Origin: a virus
Strand: one strand, 5' to 3'
DNA: 26,856 nucleotides
Virus record (IMG/VR): IMGVR_UViG_3300037367_000022
Location: 1 to 26,856 of that record
Every line of letters begins with the position of its first letter. Position 1 is the first letter of the stretch. Under the pieces are notes generated by a model. The model was not told the DNA's origin. It saw only the letters and a list, made by a program, of their open reading frames with translations, and did not search any database. A program made the position numbers and the translations under genes. Shown one piece after another: positions 2,634 to 21,462 of this stretch.

Positions 2634-4680
2634 ACCTGTACCCCGCGAAGCCCTTCGCGGCGAGCGGCATGCCCGCAGTCCAGGGCGATGATAGTGTCAT
2701 CAGGTCACTCAGACCTGTAGACGTAAACTCCGGCGAGTCCGGCGGCTCGCAGATGATTTCGTCATGGACGGACAGCACAGGCTCGTATCCCGCATCGTCG
2801 GCAGCCACAAGTCCGTCCATTAGGATGTCGGCCGAGCTGCCCTGTACGATGTTCTCGGCGAGCTTGCCACTGTACGTGCTGATGCGCTTCCACTGCTTCG
2901 TGTAGGCATCGACGCCCACGAAGCTGATCCCTTCCCACTCCTTCGCGCGCGGCGCCGGGTAGTTGAGGTATCGGCCACTCGGCAGCCGGACCCGCAGCCA
3001 GTTGGCGACGCGATCGACGACAACGCGGCCGGCCGGGTAGTGCTTGCCGGGGTTCTTGACCGCCATCTCGACGGCACTCTCTAGCTCGCTCCAAAACCCG
3101 ACAATCGCCGGATGTTGCTCGCGCCACATCAGCACGAGCGCTTGGCACACGAGCCACACTTCGCGCTCTAGGCCGTAGGTGCGGCGCCGCTTGACGGCCT
3201 TATCCCACCCGGCTTCGGCCGCTTTCTGGAATTGGCGCGGAATGTGAGGCCAAGCGGTGCGCGGCAAGTCTTCAAGACGCAAGCCGTAAGTCTCGGCCAT
3301 CGAGCAGAACGCGCCAACACCGCCGTAGTACTGGAGCGCAAGCTCCATTACCTTACCAATCTGCCGGCGCCAATCCGTGTCGTCTATCTCGTTGGGGTCT
3401 ATTCCGAACGCGCGGCCCGCGGAGACTTTATAGAGATCCGGACCTTCCCCCGCGTCGTAGGCGGCGAAAGCTTCAAGCTTCCAGTCTTCGCCTGCAATCC
3501 ACGCCATGTCCCGTCCCTCGATGTTTGCAAGGTCGGCGACGCAAAGCTTCCGTCCGCTCGCCGAAACCATAATTCCTCGGAGACAGGAGTTGGCAAGCCC
3601 GAGTACATCTGTTCGCGTGTATTCGTGTATGGTACCTTCGCGAAACGCCTGAATCGCGTTTTCAATATCCCACGGGGCATGCTTAGGGCGCGGGAGATTC
3701 TGCGGCTGGAAGGTGCGTCCAGCCCAACGCCCGGTGCGGTTAGCGCCGCAAAACACCAGGAGATTGCGCAGGCGACCCCCAACGTGTTGATCGAGTGCGC
3801 GCTTATATTTCGCTCCCGCAGACTTGCTTGCTTGCTGCCGAATGCGAAGTAGTTCTTTGATGTGTTCGGGGAGTTGGTCATCTTCGAGTCGCCTCTCAAC
3901 AGTGTCTGCTGTTAGGTCGGGCAGGTCTACGCCGTAGTCGGCCATGTAAGCGAGCAGTCGGTTCCGTTGCGTCGTGCGCTCGACTTCGTTCTCTGTGATT
4001 TCCGCGGTGCGATCGGCGAGCTTGCGCTTCGCCTTCTCGGCCGCCTTCATGGCGCCTTCGCACAGTTTCAAGTCTGCTGCCACGCCGCGCGCGTTCATCT
4101 TCTGGTCAAGGTGCCATATGCGCCACATGCGCGGTGTGGCGTTCCACTTCGGACAGTGCCGGTAAACGGCACGCATCGAGCGAATGTCACCCGCGCCATA
4201 CTCCATGAACTTCCGCCACTGCGTCGGGTGCGAGTGGCGATCGTTGTACTTGCCATCCTTGCGCGGGACGCAAAAAAGCTGGATCAGCTCGCGGCCGCCC
4301 TCGTCCTTACCCTCGTCGCCGAGCTTGAAGATGGTTGACAGCTTGTCGAGTCCGCCGGGCAGACCGTGCATGCGGGCGAGCGCCATCGTGCAGCGCCACT
4401 TGGTTGGCTCAATGATCGGCCAGTACATCGGCCAACAGGCGCTCGTGAGCTGCTGTTCAAACTCCGCGCCGTGCGCCCATATCTCGTCGGCTTGCTCGGC
4501 TGCTACCATCAGGGCGCCAGATGGCGCATCGCTCTTGCCGCCGGTCAAATCTTCGACGTGTATTTCGCCATCGTCGATAGCCCACTGCGCCATGATGATC
4601 TGTGCCTTGGTCGCATATCGCGCTACGCCGCGTTTGATCGGAATAGGCGAGCGGGTCTCAAGGTCGAGCCAGAGCTTCAT
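2620..4680 (-). CDS. Family A DNA polymerase with 3'-5' exonuclease domain
   Basis: 686 aa. The N-terminal DnaQ-like exonuclease has Exo I D6/E8 (WLDLETRSP), an Exo II-like HGAEFE (70-75) and Exo III YGAGD (161-165). The polymerase domain has the template-binding GANRTGRWAGR-FQPQNLPR (312-331), motif A VADLANIEGR (D383, E388), motif B around IGKVMELALQYYGG (441-454) and motif C LSVHDE (H639, D640). All catalytic positions appear intact, and there is no 5'-3' exonuclease domain, as usual for phage replicative enzymes. It starts in an ATGA overlap with the small basic protein upstream. Some phages with a diaminopurine genome encode a dedicated member of this family (DpoZ); nothing visible decides whether this is one. 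Confidence 0.95.
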   Translation of the reverse strand: MKLWLDLETRSPIPIKRGVARYATKAQIIMAQWAIDDGEIHVEDLTGGKSDAPSGALMVAAEQADEIWAHGAEFEQQLTSACWPMYWPIIEPTKWRCTMALARMHGLPGGLDKLSTIFKLGDEGKDEGGRELIQLFCVPRKDGKYNDRHSHPTQWRKFMEYGAGDIRSMRAVYRHCPKWNATPRMWRIWHLDQKMNARGVAADLKLCEGAMKAAEKAKRKLADRTAEITENEVERTTQRNRLLAYMADYGVDLPDLTADTVERRLEDDQLPEHIKELLRIRQQASKSAGAKYKRALDQHVGGRLRNLLVFCGANRTGRWAGRTFQPQNLPRPKHAPWDIENAIQAFREGTIHEYTRTDVLGLANSCLRGIMVSASGRKLCVADLANIEGRDMAWIAGEDWKLEAFAAYDAGEGPDLYKVSAGRAFGIDPNEIDDTDWRRQIGKVMELALQYYGGVGAFCSMAETYGLRLEDLPRTAWPHIPRQFQKAAEAGWDKAVKRRRTYGLEREVWLVCQALVLMWREQHPAIVGFWSELESAVEMAVKNPGKHYPAGRVVVDRVANWLRVRLPSGRYLNYPAPRAKEWEGISFVGVDAYTKQWKRISTYSGKLAENIVQGSSADILMDGLVAADDAGYEPVLSVHDEIICEPPDSPEFTSTGLSDLMTLSSPWTAGMPLAAKGFAGYRYEKR

Positions 4681-7724: not shown

Positions 7725-7918
7725 GGTTTGTAGTTCCTGTAGAAGCTTTTAAGAAGCTTCGTGCCGGGAGGGTTCACCGGGCCGCTGCCGGCCCGGTGCC
7801 CTTTGCGGTCGCAACCTCTTTCGCGCAGCGGGCGCTTCGAGATGCGATAGCCGTGCGGCTGTCGCAACTTGTTGAGCATCGCCGCACCAAAAAGCGCTTG
7901 CAGACTTTTCAGACTCAT
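7721..7918 (-). CDS. Small basic hypothetical protein
   Basis: 65 aa, MSLKSLQALFGAAMLNKLRQ then strongly basic (ISKRPLRERGCDRKGHRAG). The start shares ATGA with the stop of the upstream gene and the stop shares ATGA with the next. The coding DNA contains a perfect 10-bp inverted repeat with a 4-nt loop (7775-7798). Function not recognised; it may bind nucleic acid given its charge. Confidence 0.6.
   Translation of the reverse strand: MSLKSLQALFGAAMLNKLRQPHGYRISKRPLRERGCDRKGHRAGSGPVNPPGTKLLKSFYRNYKP
7775..7798. repeat. 10-bp perfect inverted repeat with 4-nt loop, inside a small gene
   Basis: CACCGGGCCG, loop CTGC, CGGCCCGGTG. Neither strand has a T-tract after it, so it is not an intrinsic terminator. 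In the leftward transcript it would form a very stable hairpin within coding sequence and could slow RNase or ribosomes. Could be fortuitous in GC-rich DNA, but ten perfect pairs is notable. Confidence 0.5.
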
Positions 7919-8325
7919 GAAGTCAGGTCTTCGCCGTTGAGGATTGCGGTTCCCTCAGCGATGAAGTCATCAGCGACAGCAGCCTTGACGCCGCTGACGC
8001 TCGTAGCGCCAAACTTCTTGAGCAATGCAACGGCCTCATCACGCTTGCCAGCAGCAAGCAAGCCGTCTACAACGCTCTTGACAGTCGGCGCGCCGTTGGC
8101 AGGCCCGAGATCAGCCTCTGGGGCAGCCACGGGCTTCGCGACCTTGACAGGCTTCGGAGCTGCCGACTTCGGCGCGGCCGGCTGCGCGGGCGCAGGGGAC
8201 GGCACGTCGCCAGCGAGGATGAAATCGACAAAAGCGCGGGCGGCAGCCAGAACGCTATCGGCATCGGTCAGACCGAGCTTGTTAGCTTCCTGAAGCGCAA
8301 TTGCGCGGGGGGCAACTTGGGACAT
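7915..8325 (-). CDS. Hypothetical phage protein with Ala/Pro linker
   Basis: 136 aa. A helical N-terminal part (to about residue 42) is followed by an Ala/Pro/Lys-rich linker (about 43-75) and a C-terminal helical domain (VKSVVDGLLAAGKRDEAVALL, KKFGATSVSGV, DDFIAEGTAIL). The C-terminal part matches my memory of small phage proteins of unknown function encoded beside replicative primase-helicases. The RBS TAGGAG overlaps the stop of the primase-helicase gene; the leader GGAGTCCCACA is also found at the primase-helicase start. Confidence 0.7.
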   Translation of the reverse strand: MSQVAPRAIALQEANKLGLTDADSVLAAARAFVDFILAGDVPSPAPAQPAAPKSAAPKPVKVAKPVAAPEADLGPANGAPTVKSVVDGLLAAGKRDEAVALLKKFGATSVSGVKAAVADDFIAEGTAILNGEDLTS

Positions 8326-8337
8326 GGTGTGGGACTC

Positions 8338-10509
8338 CTAACTTAGTAATGGGTCTTCGGCTGAAACATCGAGGTTTTGCCAATGCGCGATCCTATCGGT
8401 CTGTGTTGAGTTTGTCCAGAACTTTTTATTGCGGATAATCCAAAGGTGGGGGCGACTCTTACCAAAACGAACTTGTTCAAATTCGCCGCCGAAAATATCT
8501 CTTAGCATGTCGCCGATGCGGTGCAGACTGGGCGAGTAGCGTAGCGTCTCGCGCAAGGCTTGCGCTACTTCGGCGGTCGTTACAATGTCCTTTTCAAACG
8601 GCCCTGTCCGCTCATCAAACCAAGCATGGAGTTGTTCAGCGTCTGCCCCTTCGCCGGCTTTTACCATCTGGGCCTTGGCGTCAGTTAGCGGCGCCCGCGC
8701 GCTTGGGCTGAATCCTGTGGTATCGAGGCTCATAAAGTAGTGTCGCAGCACGCCGGGCGCGCGGTCTGTATTCAAGAACCCCTCAAAGATCCACGACATT
8801 TCGTCTTCAGTCATGGCTGGCGCAAGCATGTGATGGATGCCCCATTTGCGGTCGTCATTGGATATAGAGGCGGCGTTCTCTTTGTTGGAACTGGCCGTCA
8901 CGAAAAAGTGGTTCGGTATAGTGACGGCGCCCAAGTTCTTTTGATGTAGCTCCAACTTGGTCTCTACAATCCAGCGTTCGACCTTCTTTGTAACTTGGTC
9001 GTTCTCGCGGCGAGAGCCGCCACTAAACTCGCTCAAACTAACATGCCAAGCGCTGCTTAAAGCGTCGTTGAATGTACCATCTAGAACGTCGGCTCCGATC
9101 TGCACATGGTAGTCATCGCCTACCAGCGCCGCGGGTACCCTGTCCGTCAGCATCGACTTACCGTTACCCTGCGTTTTGCTCCATATAAGAGGCGCACTTC
9201 GGATCTTAACGCCCGGATGCTGGATTGCGTAGGCGTAGAACTTCAGCAGCCACGTCCGGTACGCATCATCATATATGCGAGCGAACATCCATGTGATTTT
9301 TTCCTGTTCTTCTGCTGTCGGCGGCAACTCTTTCGGGATGCGCGCGCGGTATTTGTTGACGTATCGGTTGCCGTTCTCGGTAAATACGACGCCCTCGCCG
9401 GGGTGAAACCCAACGCCGTCTACGACTTCTTTATCCTTACCTAGCGCGACCAATAAGCTATACGCCTTTTTCTTTGCCGGCATGAGATAGCCGAACATCT
9501 GCTCGATGCCTTGGTTCGTCTCGAATAGGTGATGGGTCTCGCGGTCAAAAAATTTCTCATAGCACATGACGAAGACCAACCGGGCTTTTAAGAAGTCCTT
9601 TGCCGCTTGGAGCTTGTCTCGTTTGACCTTTAGGTCAACCAACGCCGTTGTTTCTTCGTCGGGTGCCGCCTCGCACACAACCTCAAATTCGTCCGGCGCC
9701 GCTGGCGTGTTGAGACCGCGCGCACCGTCAACGTCAAAGCTAATCCAGTGCGTGTTCAGGTCGCCGACGTTCTTGTACGACTTCCCTGTTTTCGATAGTT
9801 CGTTCCACAAGGAGAGACCGGCAGTTGAGCCGCCGGTTTCCTTGTGGATGCTCTGCCCGAGGTTGATCCAATCGTCATAGTTGTCGATGTCGAGCCGCGC
9901 GAGCTTCGCTTTTGCCGCCTCGCGTATGCGCTCAATCGGCAGCGCGTTAGGCGTTTTGTTCACCATCTCGCGAACCGGCTCGCTGTCGGTCAGCTCGCGC
10001 CAAACACGGAATACGTTCGCAGGGATGTTGGGTAGCGTGCGCCAGTCGCCGGTCAGCGGCTCGCCGTACGCCCATTCGTACGGCCTTTTTGTCAGTGGAT
10101 GCACGCTCGGCGGAATCACGTCTTGAACGCTCTTGCCTTCGGCCGTGGCGCAGCGCAATTCAAAGCCCGCGCCGCGCGGCTTGACGGTGCGCAACGGTTT
10201 ACTCAGCTTGTAGAGTAATTTGTCGCGGCCTGCGCGACCGCTCGCGATATGTACGCTGTCGGGGCTATTGCGCAGAGCATCTATGTCTACGCCTTTTTCC
10301 GCCCACCATGCGCGGGCTGCTTCCATGTCGTCAATGTCAAAGGCGCAGGTCCCGCTCAGTGCATGCAGCAGTCCGGCGCCGCCCCCTAGCGCATCGATGC
10401 TCTCGGCGGGCATCGGTGTGACGTTCCAACCGTCATACCGGGGTGCCTTCTGCCCAAGCTCGATAGCGCACAGGCACCAACCTGCGGCCTCATAGTTGTT
10501 GAAGCTAAT
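8338..10509 (-). CDS. Prim-Pol primase / PriCT-2 / D5-like helicase, apparent ATT start
   Basis: 723 aa if it starts at ATT 10509; 691 aa if it starts at ATG 10413. The Prim-Pol N-terminus is visible upstream of that ATG (EAAGWCLCAIELGQKAP, YDGWNVTP), then SGTCAFDIDD carries the catalytic D58-x-D60 and SVHIASGRAGRDKLLY follows. A PriCT-2 domain spans roughly residues 190-260 (LPIERIREAAKAKL, WINLGQSIHKETGG). The C-terminal D5-like AAA+ helicase has Walker A QGNGKS, an acidic SLSEFSGG segment, sensor TASSNKENA and DDRKWGIH. No ATG, GTG or TTG occurs between the in-frame stop upstream and the Prim-Pol start; ATT lies eight bases after GGAG. It primes and unwinds for the family A polymerase. Confidence 0.9.
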   Translation of the reverse strand: MSFNNYEAAGWCLCAIELGQKAPRYDGWNVTPMPAESIDALGGGAGLLHALSGTCAFDIDDMEAARAWWAEKGVDIDALRNSPDSVHIASGRAGRDKLLYKLSKPLRTVKPRGAGFELRCATAEGKSVQDVIPPSVHPLTKRPYEWAYGEPLTGDWRTLPNIPANVFRVWRELTDSEPVREMVNKTPNALPIERIREAAKAKLARLDIDNYDDWINLGQSIHKETGGSTAGLSLWNELSKTGKSYKNVGDLNTHWISFDVDGARGLNTPAAPDEFEVVCEAAPDEETTALVDLKVKRDKLQAAKDFLKARLVFVMCYEKFFDRETHHLFETNQGIEQMFGYLMPAKKKAYSLLVALGKDKEVVDGVGFHPGEGVVFTENGNRYVNKYRARIPKELPPTAEEQEKITWMFARIYDDAYRTWLLKFYAYAIQHPGVKIRSAPLIWSKTQGNGKSMLTDRVPAALVGDDYHVQIGADVLDGTFNDALSSAWHVSLSEFSGGSRRENDQVTKKVERWIVETKLELHQKNLGAVTIPNHFFVTASSNKENAASISNDDRKWGIHHMLAPAMTEDEMSWIFEGFLNTDRAPGVLRHYFMSLDTTGFSPSARAPLTDAKAQMVKAGEGADAEQLHAWFDERTGPFEKDIVTTAEVAQALRETLRYSPSLHRIGDMLRDIFGGEFEQVRFGKSRPHLWIIRNKKFWTNSTQTDRIAHWQNLDVSAEDPLLS

Positions 10510-10543
10510 TTGTGGGACTCCGCTGACGTGAGCGTAGAGTAAG

Positions 10544-10777
10544 CTAGTAGCCTCCTTGCCGCAAGCGATTCAGTGCATTCTCCAGAGAGGTGTCTAGCGC
10601 CTCGGAGTAGACGTTCTCGTGTATCTTGCCACTATACGGGCTGGCATGGCTCAAATGCTCCATGGCCTCGCGCGGGGGGCGTACGTCGCGGTTGTCCCGC
10701 AAGCGTACAGTTGTCGGGCGCGATGCCGGCCGCTCGAAGAAACCGGGGTATTTCTCGCCTTGTGGGAAAGGTCTCAT
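10544..10777 (-). CDS. Hypothetical protein
   Basis: 77 aa, Arg/Pro-rich N-terminal half (GFFERPASRPTTVRLRDNRD) and an acidic helical C-terminus (ENVYSEALDTSLENALNRLRQ). Starts in an ATGA overlap with the stop of the upstream gene. Function not recognised. Its end lies 34 bases before the apparent ATT start of the primase-helicase. Confidence 0.6.
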   Translation of the reverse strand: MRPFPQGEKYPGFFERPASRPTTVRLRDNRDVRPPREAMEHLSHASPYSGKIHENVYSEALDTSLENALNRLRQGGY

Positions 10778-12758: not shown

Positions 12759-13490
12759 TTAGTACTCAACAGCTTCTTGCCGCGTGATGAAGAAGTGTAT
12801 GCCGTGGCTACACTCAACCCGCGGATCAGGATCATAACTATCTGGTGTTACCAACCCGCTCAGGGGGTATTGGAAACCGCCATACGCTTCTCCTAACAGC
12901 TTGCCTTCGCGATCCAGGATATAAGCGAATTCCGCGCGACACTTGCGACTGCCATAGGCGTTTACTCGCTTGGCGTCGGCGGGAATCATCAGCGTAACGA
13001 TTACTTTACCGACTTTCTTGAACCCAATGAACTGTCCTACTTGGGGCGCTACGACAAACTGCTCTAATCCCCGGCAACCTGACAGGTTCGCGTCGCGCAG
13101 GTTCGCGCCGTCCAGGTTCGCGCCGTCCAGGTTCGCGCCGCGCAGGTGCGCGCCGCGCAGGTGCGCGCAGCGCAGGTTCGCGCCGTCCAGGTGCGCGCCG
13201 CGCAGGTCCGCGCAGCGCAGGTGCGCGCAGCGCAGGTCCGCGTCGCGCAGGTTCGCGCTGCGCAGGTCCGCGCCGCTCAGGTTCGCACCGCGCAGGTTCG
13301 CGCCGGGCAGGTGCGCACGGCGCAGGTCCGCACCGCTCAGGTCCGCGCCGCTCAGGTCCGCACGGCGCAGGTCCGCACCGCTCAGGTGCGCGCAGCTCAG
13401 GTTCGCGCCGCTCAGGTGCGCGCCGCGCAGGTTCGCACCGGGACGAATGTCAACCTCGCGTTCTGAACCGTCAAGGAATTTAATCATCAT
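12759..13490 (-). CDS. Pentapeptide-repeat protein with C-terminal DUF5758-like domain
   Basis: 243 aa. A short beta cap ([15 protein letters not shown]) leads into about 24 pentapeptides, residues 18-138, of form A(N/D/H)L(R/S/D)G, forming a right-handed square beta-helix. Such solenoids can mimic DNA, as in gyrase-protecting Qnr/MfpA. The C-terminal domain (about 140-243; [41 protein letters not shown]) matches the phage DUF5758 pattern as I remember it. The gene starts behind an ATAGGAG leader and overlaps the upstream damaged paralogue as ATGA. Function unknown; gyrase or nuclease interaction is only a family-based possibility. Confidence 0.85.
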
Positions 13491-13917
13491 GGTTGGTTAC
13501 TCCTATGTCGATAAGAAGCGTAGCAGTTCGTGGCGATCAGGTTCGCACCGCTCAGGTTCGCACCGCTCAGGTCCGCGCTGCACAGGTACGCGCCGTCCAC
13601 AGGTTCGCGCCGCGCAAGTCCGCACCGCTCAGGTGCGCGCCGCTCAGGTCCGCGCAGCACAGGTACGCGCCGCGCAAGTCCGCACCGCTCAGGTGCGCGC
13701 CGCTCAGGTCCGCGCAGCACAGGTACGCGCCGCGCAGGTTCGCACCGCCCAAGTACGCGCTGTTCAGGTTCGCGCTGATCAGGTTCGCACCGCTCAGGTT
13801 CGCACCGCTCAGGTTCGCGCTGCTCAGGTCCGCGCAGTACAGGTCCGCGGAGCGCAGGTCCGCGCCGGGACGAATGTCAACCTCGCGTTCTGAACCGTCA
13901 AGGAATCTAATCATCAT
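13487..13917 (-). pseudogene. Frameshifted, C-terminally truncated second pentapeptide-repeat gene
   Basis: The first 18 residues are nearly identical to the next gene ([19 protein letters not shown]), with the same leader. It reads pentapeptides until a 2-nt insertion (CA at 13598-13599) breaks the 15-nt period. The original frame then stops at 13567 after [10 protein letters not shown]; the repeat continues in another frame ([19 protein letters not shown]) to a TGA at 13487 that overlaps the next start. There is no C-terminal domain; instead the repeat runs into a copy of the last codons of the upstream 45-aa gene. The whole is best explained by a 427-bp tandem duplication. The 116-aa frame from 13917 to 13567 could still be expressed as a short solenoid. 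Confidence 0.75.
13609..13728. repeat. Perfect 60-bp tandem repeat (two copies) in the damaged pentapeptide gene
   Basis: 13609-13668 and 13669-13728 are identical and each encodes four pentapeptides, visible as [20 protein letters not shown] twice in the protein. The 60-bp unit is four 15-nt repeats, so the duplication adds one whole turn of the beta-helix without breaking frame. This points to slippage or unequal recombination between repeats. Confidence 0.9.
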
Positions 13918-19645: not shown

Positions 19646-19772
19646 AAAGCCGCACATCTTCAAGCGCGGTGCCTGGTGGTACTGCGGTTGGGGCGGCCGC
19701 ATGGTGAACGGCTGTGCAAGCGGCCGCACGCCGCTGAAGGCATATTTGATCCTTATGGCGTATCCGGCATGA
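19632..19772 (+). CDS. Small conserved phage protein upstream of terminase
   Basis: 46 aa, MKPSKKPHIFKRGAWWYCG, GRTPLKAYLILMA. The pattern (PxIFKRxGWWYCG ... GxGRTPLxAY) recurs in tiny phage proteins. It overlaps the glycosyltransferase end by 14 bases and the terminase start by ATGA. A single CW-rich fold, function unknown. Confidence 0.7.
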   Translation: MKPSKKPHIFKRGAWWYCGWGGRMVNGCASGRTPLKAYLILMAYPA

Positions 19773-20827
19773 ACCCGGATCGCCAACCAATAACCCCATC
19801 GCAAGCCGCGATCGAGAAACTGCGACGCCAGAGGGCACGCACAAGCCTCGCTGAATTCAGCCAGTGCATCGACATCCCCGGCGTGCCGATATGGGGCGAA
19901 GGCGAAAGCGATCCGCTCGATGGCGTGGAGGATGGCGACACGCGCATTGTCGAGAGGCGGCCGACAATGTTCACACCGATCGAGTCGCGCATCGCGCTTC
20001 ACCATCTCGTGATGATGATGGCGATTCAGAAGTGCATCGAGACCCCGCGCGGCAGGCTCATGATTTTCGCCCCACCTGGCTCTGCCAAGAGTACGTACGC
20101 TTCAGTCGTCGGCCCCTCTTGGGCCATGGGCAGGAAGCGCAACCAGTCGATCATCCTGGGCGGCTACGGCACCAGCATCGCGGCCAAGCAGAGCCGCAAA
20201 GTGCGCGCCGTCGTCAAGGAGCAGATATACACCGCGCTGTGGGATTCGGCGCCGCGGCTGTTGGATGACCAGAGGGCCATCGACGACTGGAGCTTGACCA
20301 ACGGCAGTAGTATGATGGCAGCCGGCCTGCTTGCCGGAATCACGGGCAACAGAGCAGACGGTTTTGTCATCGACGATCCCGTAGCAAACCGCGAGCAGGC
20401 CGATTCCTCCGCGATCCGCGAGAAGACCTACCAGGAGTACATCGACACGGTAATGACCCGTGCCAAGCCGAAGATGTGGTGTATTCTGATTCAGACGCGA
20501 TGGCACGAGGAAGACCTTGCGGGCTCAATTCTACCTGCGAACTACGAGGGCGAGTCAGGTCGCATCCATTGCCGCGACGGCCAATGGTGGGAAGTCCTGT
20601 GTATTCCGGCTAAAGCTGAGCGTGTGGACGATCCATTGGGCCGAACGGTGGGAGAGTATCTTTGGCCGGAGTGGTTCCCGCGCGAGCACTGGAGCACATG
20701 GGAAGACAACCCGCGGGCTGCTCGCACATGGTCAGCGCTGTACCAACAGCGGCCGGCGCCACTTGCGGGCATCCACTTTTCACGAGAGATGTTCAAGCTT
20801 TACGACCCGTTCCTGCCACCGCTATGA
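19769..20827 (+). CDS. terL: Large terminase, ATPase part
   Basis: 352 aa starting MNPDRQPITPSQ in an ATGA overlap with the upstream gene. Walker A is APPGSAKST (101-109), Walker B FVIDDP (199-204), and coupling motif C IQTRWHEEDLAG (241-252). WSALYQQRPAPLAGIHF and FKLYDPF (to 347) match the linker region before the nuclease domain. Whereas most terminases continue into the nuclease, this frame stops at TGA 20825-20827, and the nuclease continues in a second gene starting four bases earlier. Function: ATP-driven DNA packaging motor. Confidence 0.9.
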   Translation: MNPDRQPITPSQAAIEKLRRQRARTSLAEFSQCIDIPGVPIWGEGESDPLDGVEDGDTRIVERRPTMFTPIESRIALHHLVMMMAIQKCIETPRGRLMIFAPPGSAKSTYASVVGPSWAMGRKRNQSIILGGYGTSIAAKQSRKVRAVVKEQIYTALWDSAPRLLDDQRAIDDWSLTNGSSMMAAGLLAGITGNRADGFVIDDPVANREQADSSAIREKTYQEYIDTVMTRAKPKMWCILIQTRWHEEDLAGSILPANYEGESGRIHCRDGQWWEVLCIPAKAERVDDPLGRTVGEYLWPEWFPREHWSTWEDNPRAARTWSALYQQRPAPLAGIHFSREMFKLYDPFLPPL

Positions 20828-21462
20828 TTGAAAGCTACGCCAATCTCGACGCGTTGCCGCGCGCTCTACGCATCTACGGCGCGAGCGACTACGCGACGAT
20901 GGAGCCGGACTACACGAAGCGCGAACCCGACTTTACGGAACATGGCGTTGTAGGCATCGACGCGATCGGGGATCTGTGGTTCATCGACTGGTGGTTCGAG
21001 CAGTGCGAGACCGACAAAGGTATTGCCGCATTCATCAAGCTCGTCGGGTTGCACAAACCTGTGAAGTGGTTCAACGAGGGCGGCCTCATAGACAAAGCGA
21101 TCGGTCCGTCGATCCGCCAGGCTATGCGCCTCTCGCAAAAGTACGTCGCGGTCGAGTCATTGAGTCTTATCGGTGACAAAGCGGTCAAACTTCAGGCGTT
21201 CCACGCCCGCGCCTCAGCACGGACGGTTCACTTTCCCGCCCGCCGCGCTTGGACCGATCATGTCATCGACCAGCTAGTTAAGTTCCCCGGCGGCCGGTGG
21301 GACGATGCAGCCGACGTATGCGGCCTTTTAGGGCGCGGGGTGGACAAGATGTTCGAGGCCAATGTATCCTTGCCCGAGCGTCGGCCACTCCTGATTCCGT
21401 TCACGGAGAAATGGCTTGAGTACAATGAGCGGAACGAAAAGCCGAAGGTTAGGTACTTCTGA
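20824..21462 (+). CDS. Large terminase, nuclease part
   Basis: 212 aa starting MIESYANLDALPRALRIYGASDYA. D22 (GASDYA), with EPDFTEHGVVGIDAIGDLWFIDWW, E85 (NEGG) and D160/D161/D164 (GGRWDDAADVCGLLG), give the RNase H-like nuclease of terminases. In relatives this is fused to the ATPase. It is in the -1 frame relative to the ATPase and starts within ATGA. It ends in TGATG with the next gene. A split motor or a 1-nt deletion are both consistent. Confidence 0.85.
   Translation: MIESYANLDALPRALRIYGASDYATMEPDYTKREPDFTEHGVVGIDAIGDLWFIDWWFEQCETDKGIAAFIKLVGLHKPVKWFNEGGLIDKAIGPSIRQAMRLSQKYVAVESLSLIGDKAVKLQAFHARASARTVHFPARRAWTDHVIDQLVKFPGGRWDDAADVCGLLGRGVDKMFEANVSLPERRPLLIPFTEKWLEYNERNEKPKVRYF

Follow-up and report, generated by a model that had tools for sequence, protein, structure and literature searches.

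The primase-helicase gene and its surroundings

The stretch of DNA analysed here, referred to as the window, is a metagenomic contig comprising positions 1 to 26,856 of the IMG/VR record IMGVR_UViG_3300037367_000022. Its minus strand carries a primase-helicase gene with the following features, where residues are numbered from the ATT at 10509 and L009 and L047 are loci of related phages:

8341..10509, minus strand: Prim-Pol primase-helicase coding sequence counted from the ATT, 723 codons, with its stop codon at 8340-8338 (translation, Pfam, PHROG)
10507..10509, minus strand: ATT, putative initiation codon, 32 codons before M33
10518..10521, minus strand: GGAG, Shine-Dalgarno-like, followed by 8 nt (TCCCACAA) and the ATT; kept in L009 and L047
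10511..10521, minus strand: leader GGAGTCCCACA, copy 1 of an exact repeat, before the primase ATT
8328..8338, minus strand: leader GGAGTCCCACA, copy 2, before the ATG (8325) of the next gene
10414..10509, minus strand: 32 residues that conventional gene calling would leave out (38-sequence alignment; AlphaFold2 model)
10544..10777, minus strand: upstream ORF of 77 aa, its TAG 37 nt ahead of the ATT; a conserved neighbour outside the primase
7915..8325, minus strand: next gene downstream, with an ATG start and the same leader motif as the primase

The protein matches PHROG 1156 (DNA primase), and among the phage primase-helicases of this type its nearest annotated relative is that of Phage DSL-LC05. 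Three Pfam domains were detected, all above their curated cut-offs: Prim-Pol at residues 6-154, covering positions 4-150 of the 158 in profile PF09250, PriCT_2 at 209-265 and DUF5906 at 444-553. Both this domain order and the N-terminal motif are those of the Prim-Pol/PriCT-2 primase-helicases of PHROG 1156. The catalytic D-x-D and H motifs are present (D58, D60 and H137, invariant among 38 homologues), and the sequence TQGNGKS occupies the Walker A position in the helicase part.

Two other loci of the window are also worth describing. On the plus strand, two separate ORFs encode the large terminase, 19676-20827 (ATPase part) and 20824-21462 (nuclease part), which overlap as ATGA (ATG at 20824, stop TGA at 20825-20827); the split of the terminase is not an assembly error, because both the split and the ATGA overlap recur in the contig of the relative L009 (locus L141). 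On the minus strand, two adjacent pentapeptide-repeat ORFs (12759-13490 and 13567-13917) have near-identical beginnings and are probably the result of a local duplication.

The ATT codon and its leader

A codon-by-codon reading of the minus strand indicates that the primase frame, which contains the ATG of M33 at 10413, is open upstream to a TGA at 10572-10570, and that no ATG, GTG or TTG lies in this frame between that stop and M33. The first-pass annotation had described 32 Prim-Pol residues upstream of the first ATG and no canonical start ahead of them, and both statements hold. Since the Prim-Pol match starts at residue 6, the N-terminal extension is genuine protein. Equally accurate, down to all of its coordinates, was the description of an ATT eight bases past GGAG and of a repeat of its leader before the next gene, whose ATG lies 9 nt after GGAG. 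The window contains exactly two copies of the 11-mer GGAGTCCCACA, both on the minus strand, and exact copies were found in none of 100 dinucleotide-preserving shuffles.

Near-cognate codons other than the ATT were also considered as starts. In the case of the CTG at residue 13 (10473), conserved residues lie ahead of the codon and L009 has CTC at this place, whereas the near-cognates located upstream (ATC at 10569 in the window and ACG at 2426 in L009) are neither shared nor preceded by a Shine-Dalgarno sequence. The AUU is the sole near-cognate start at Shine-Dalgarno distance that is common to both loci. Regarding RNA structure at the primase start, nothing unusual was found in either the window or L009 (z = -0.13 and -0.66), and Rfam and tRNA searches gave no matches.

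A diverged relative with the same ATT

A scan with the C-terminal part of the primase detected L009, a locus in a 48-kb IMG/VR contig (IMGVR_UViG_3300005921_000004) which is syntenic with the window across most of the latter. The two primases share 61% protein identity over their full length, with about 67% identity for the DNA of the primase region. An ATT at position 2471 of L009 aligns exactly with the ATT of the window, in both cases as ATT-AGC, and follows the leader tcGGAGccccaccATTAGC, with GGAG at 7 nt from the start instead of 8; the L009 counterpart of the next gene shows GGAGTCCTACACC-ATG. As in the window, the L009 frame is open to an upstream stop (TGA 2423), with no ATG, GTG or TTG ahead of the ATT, and its first canonical in-frame start is a GTG at 2558 (residue V30), as compared to M33 in the window.

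These data bear on the possibility of a sequencing or assembly error that masks an ATG or another canonical start. The window is a metagenomic contig, and its start is one substitution away from the ATG-AGC-TTC that is frequent at this position in homologues. The first-pass annotation had named such an error as a way in which its reading could fail. However, the identical codon is found in a separate contig with a primase as diverged as that of L009, therefore this origin for the ATT seems extremely unlikely.

Scans of the IMG/VR proteins with the N-terminus, the upstream ORF and the terminase, as well as a DNA-pattern scan of IMG/VR for GGAG-N4-11-ATH, returned only the contig of L009 and no third member of the ATT lineage, and no further close relatives beyond the seed genome were found in 369 genomes of one bacterial class. 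Another locus (L194) shows 90% terminase identity, but it lies in a short contig without a primase. The conservation of the ATT codon thus rests on one pair, because only these two contigs carry it.

Where coding begins

The comparison between the window and L009 reveals a change from a non-coding to a coding substitution pattern precisely at the ATT (Fisher p = 2e-5). In the 12 codons that precede it, only 2/12 residues are identical, and the nucleotide differences are spread over codon positions 1, 2 and 3 (6/7/8), whereas in codons 1-32 identity rises to 28/32 residues and the differences (4/1/16) concentrate at third positions. In the 38-homologue alignment, K21 and W28 are invariant and Y6, G10, W11, I16, G19 and P23 near-invariant. 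An AlphaFold2 model (mean pLDDT 96.8) predicts for residues 1-32 a helix (3-8) and a strand (13-16), the first of the Prim-Pol fold, and the best PDB matches of the model are the Prim-Pol domains of pRN1 ORF904 and CAPP, at modest E values of about 3e-3 to 1e-2. Among other genes shared by the window and L009 with a clear coding signal, no comparable conserved stretch was found ahead of canonical starts, a comparison in which the terminase alignment begins downstream of the canonical starts available.

A start at M33, leaving the upstream residues untranslated, would be the choice of gene callers limited to ATG, GTG and TTG, as this is the first canonical in-frame start. Such a start would remove the two invariant residues along with the helix and strand that open the domain, and it does not explain why an untranslated segment would change mostly at third codon positions. 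Moreover, L009 would have to begin elsewhere, at the GTG of residue 30, and there seems to be hardly any chance that M33 is the true start.

A different possibility is that the primase lacks a start of its own and is produced as a +1 frameshift fusion from the upstream ORF, at its TAG stop (TAC TAG C). For the window as well as for L009, the frame of the primase lies at +1 to that ORF (77 and 76 aa, respectively) and is open across its stop, and the distance of 37 nt from TAG to ATT is the same. On the other hand, the 12 linker codons are those without a coding pattern, there is no common slippery sequence (TAC TAG C in the window, TGG TAG G in L009), and an AAGGAGG that directly precedes the stop codon in the window is absent from L009. 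In L047, the upstream ORF ends 33 nt before a TTG that provides the primase with its own start, and because this ORF is in the frame of the primase, there is no conserved frameshift relation. All this makes a fusion very improbable.

Starts of the homologues and origin of the ATT

Alignment-based scans yielded 80 viral and 9 genome loci, plus a further 38 that come in part from the same contigs, of which 95 loci were analysed. An in-frame ATG, GTG or TTG lies within -20 to +2 of the ATT position in all of them except L009 and L080, the contig of the latter being cut off at the primase start position. The canonical start coincides exactly with the ATT position in several loci, as ATG (L014, L017, L018, L022 and L034), GTG (L019, L114 and L115) or TTG (L047), and none of the 95 starts at the equivalent of M33. 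Comparison with homologues, the check proposed in the first-pass annotation, has therefore located their N-termini at or near the ATT and not at M33, which supports rare ATT initiation; the other suggestion made there, a start modified in some different way, finds no support. Prim-Pol family members use ATG, GTG and TTG interchangeably, and all the PHROG 1156-type members examined that have an intact 5′ end carry one of these three, the exceptions being the ATT of the window and L009.

The next closest relative, L047, has its TTG at the ATT position after the leader ccGGAGcaccca, with GGAG at 6 nt. A phylogenetic tree groups the window with L009 (SH-aLRT 85) and places L047 as their sister (99). 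This topology is consistent with a single origin of the ATT, and the codon seems to have been derived just once, from a canonical start. The simplest path would be a G-to-T change in an ATG-AGC-TTC of the common ancestor of the window and L009 phages, kept since then, whereas an alternative path would be the loss of a G from ATTGAGC, the sequence found in L047.

A variation of the leader was observed in L111 (IMGVR_UViG_3300031474_000007, about 3975-4003), where GGAGTCCCACGA-ATG opens a mini-ORF of 5 codons (MRIKL) whose TGA overlaps the GTG of the primase, which suggests a start-stop coupling derived from the same leader motif.

Probable initiation at AUU

Altogether, the position of the codon, the lack of other starts, its conservation and the coding boundary make it very probable that translation of the primase-helicase in this phage lineage begins at the AUU at 10509. 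The leader motif shared with the next gene would place this AUU 8 nt past a GGAG Shine-Dalgarno sequence, and the initiator tRNA would presumably pair with it through a third-position mismatch, so that the protein would begin with formyl-Met and not with Ile. A weak point of this explanation is the Shine-Dalgarno match, which with GGAG comprises only 4 nt. Initiator tRNA can start inefficiently at AUU, and initiation factor IF3 represses such starts. By analogy with the genes described below, the ATT would lower the output of the primase, and its start may be sensitive to the IF3 of the host, as in infC.

Known rare starts

The infC gene of E. coli, which encodes IF3, has an ATT start and is autoregulated through IF3 (PMC5472188). 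As with the window primase, ATT is its sole start, is kept in relatives and has been misannotated by gene callers (PMC5472188; PMC3091656), but infC encodes an initiation factor of the host and is controlled by its own product, a feedback that a phage primase lacks. A second chromosomal AUU start in E. coli is reported for pcnB, encoding poly(A) polymerase I, where it reportedly limits translation (Binns and Masters 2002, as cited in PMC13009471). According to that citation, pcnB would resemble the primase as a nucleic-acid enzyme with an AUU start, although it is a chromosomal housekeeping gene tested by experiment, whereas the phage primase is known from sequence alone. In Staphylococcus aureus, cvfC1 (AUU) and ccpN (AUA) also combine a rare start kept in relatives with a Shine-Dalgarno sequence, which is strong and extended in contrast to the GGAG of the primase, and the AUU of cvfC1 gives about 10% of the output of AUG in poor medium (PMC13009471). 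Finally, sigR of Streptomyces starts with GTC under IF3, and this rare start reduces the output of a dose-sensitive protein (PMC5472188); its regulatory role has been demonstrated, whereas for the ATT of the primase such a role is proposed by analogy.

In the case of phages, a single publication claiming AUU starts was found, the announcement of Salmonella phage f18SE, which states that ten coding sequences start with AUU (PMC4599075). However, the annotation of its record (KR270151) contains 46 ATG, 5 GTG, 2 TTG and no ATT starts, and f18SE is therefore unfit as a precedent. The literature searched contained no phage gene for which an AUU start has been verified.

Accident or control

To our knowledge, confirmed bacterial starts other than AUG, GUG and UUG are few and nearly all chromosomal. 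Whether the ATT of the primase was selected or tolerated is a near even question, and both variants are compatible with ATT initiation. That the codon is used but represents a tolerated accident with no regulatory role is slightly short of an even chance: one substitution suffices to create it, the family exchanges its start codons freely, and no conserved regulatory structure was found at the start in the window or L009. Against this, the ATT has been kept through about 39% of protein divergence, even though one substitution would restore ATG, and infC and pcnB of E. coli indicate that such starts can be retained for regulated or low output.

If translated from its AUU, the primase would be a phage-borne addition to the genes of the infC/pcnB type, and an essential-looking phage replication gene with a rare start kept over a large divergence. 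Gene callers truncate such proteins, with a loss of 32 residues in the window and 29 in L009 that includes invariant residues of the catalytic domain, and comparing the start positions of homologues can reveal non-canonical starts of this kind. A more tentative idea, which we consider rather doubtful, is that the AUU start was fixed as a dose control of the primase, tying the start of phage DNA replication to the IF3 level or the growth state of the host. This primase would also offer a simple test of whether phages may set the dose of their primases by means of weak starts.
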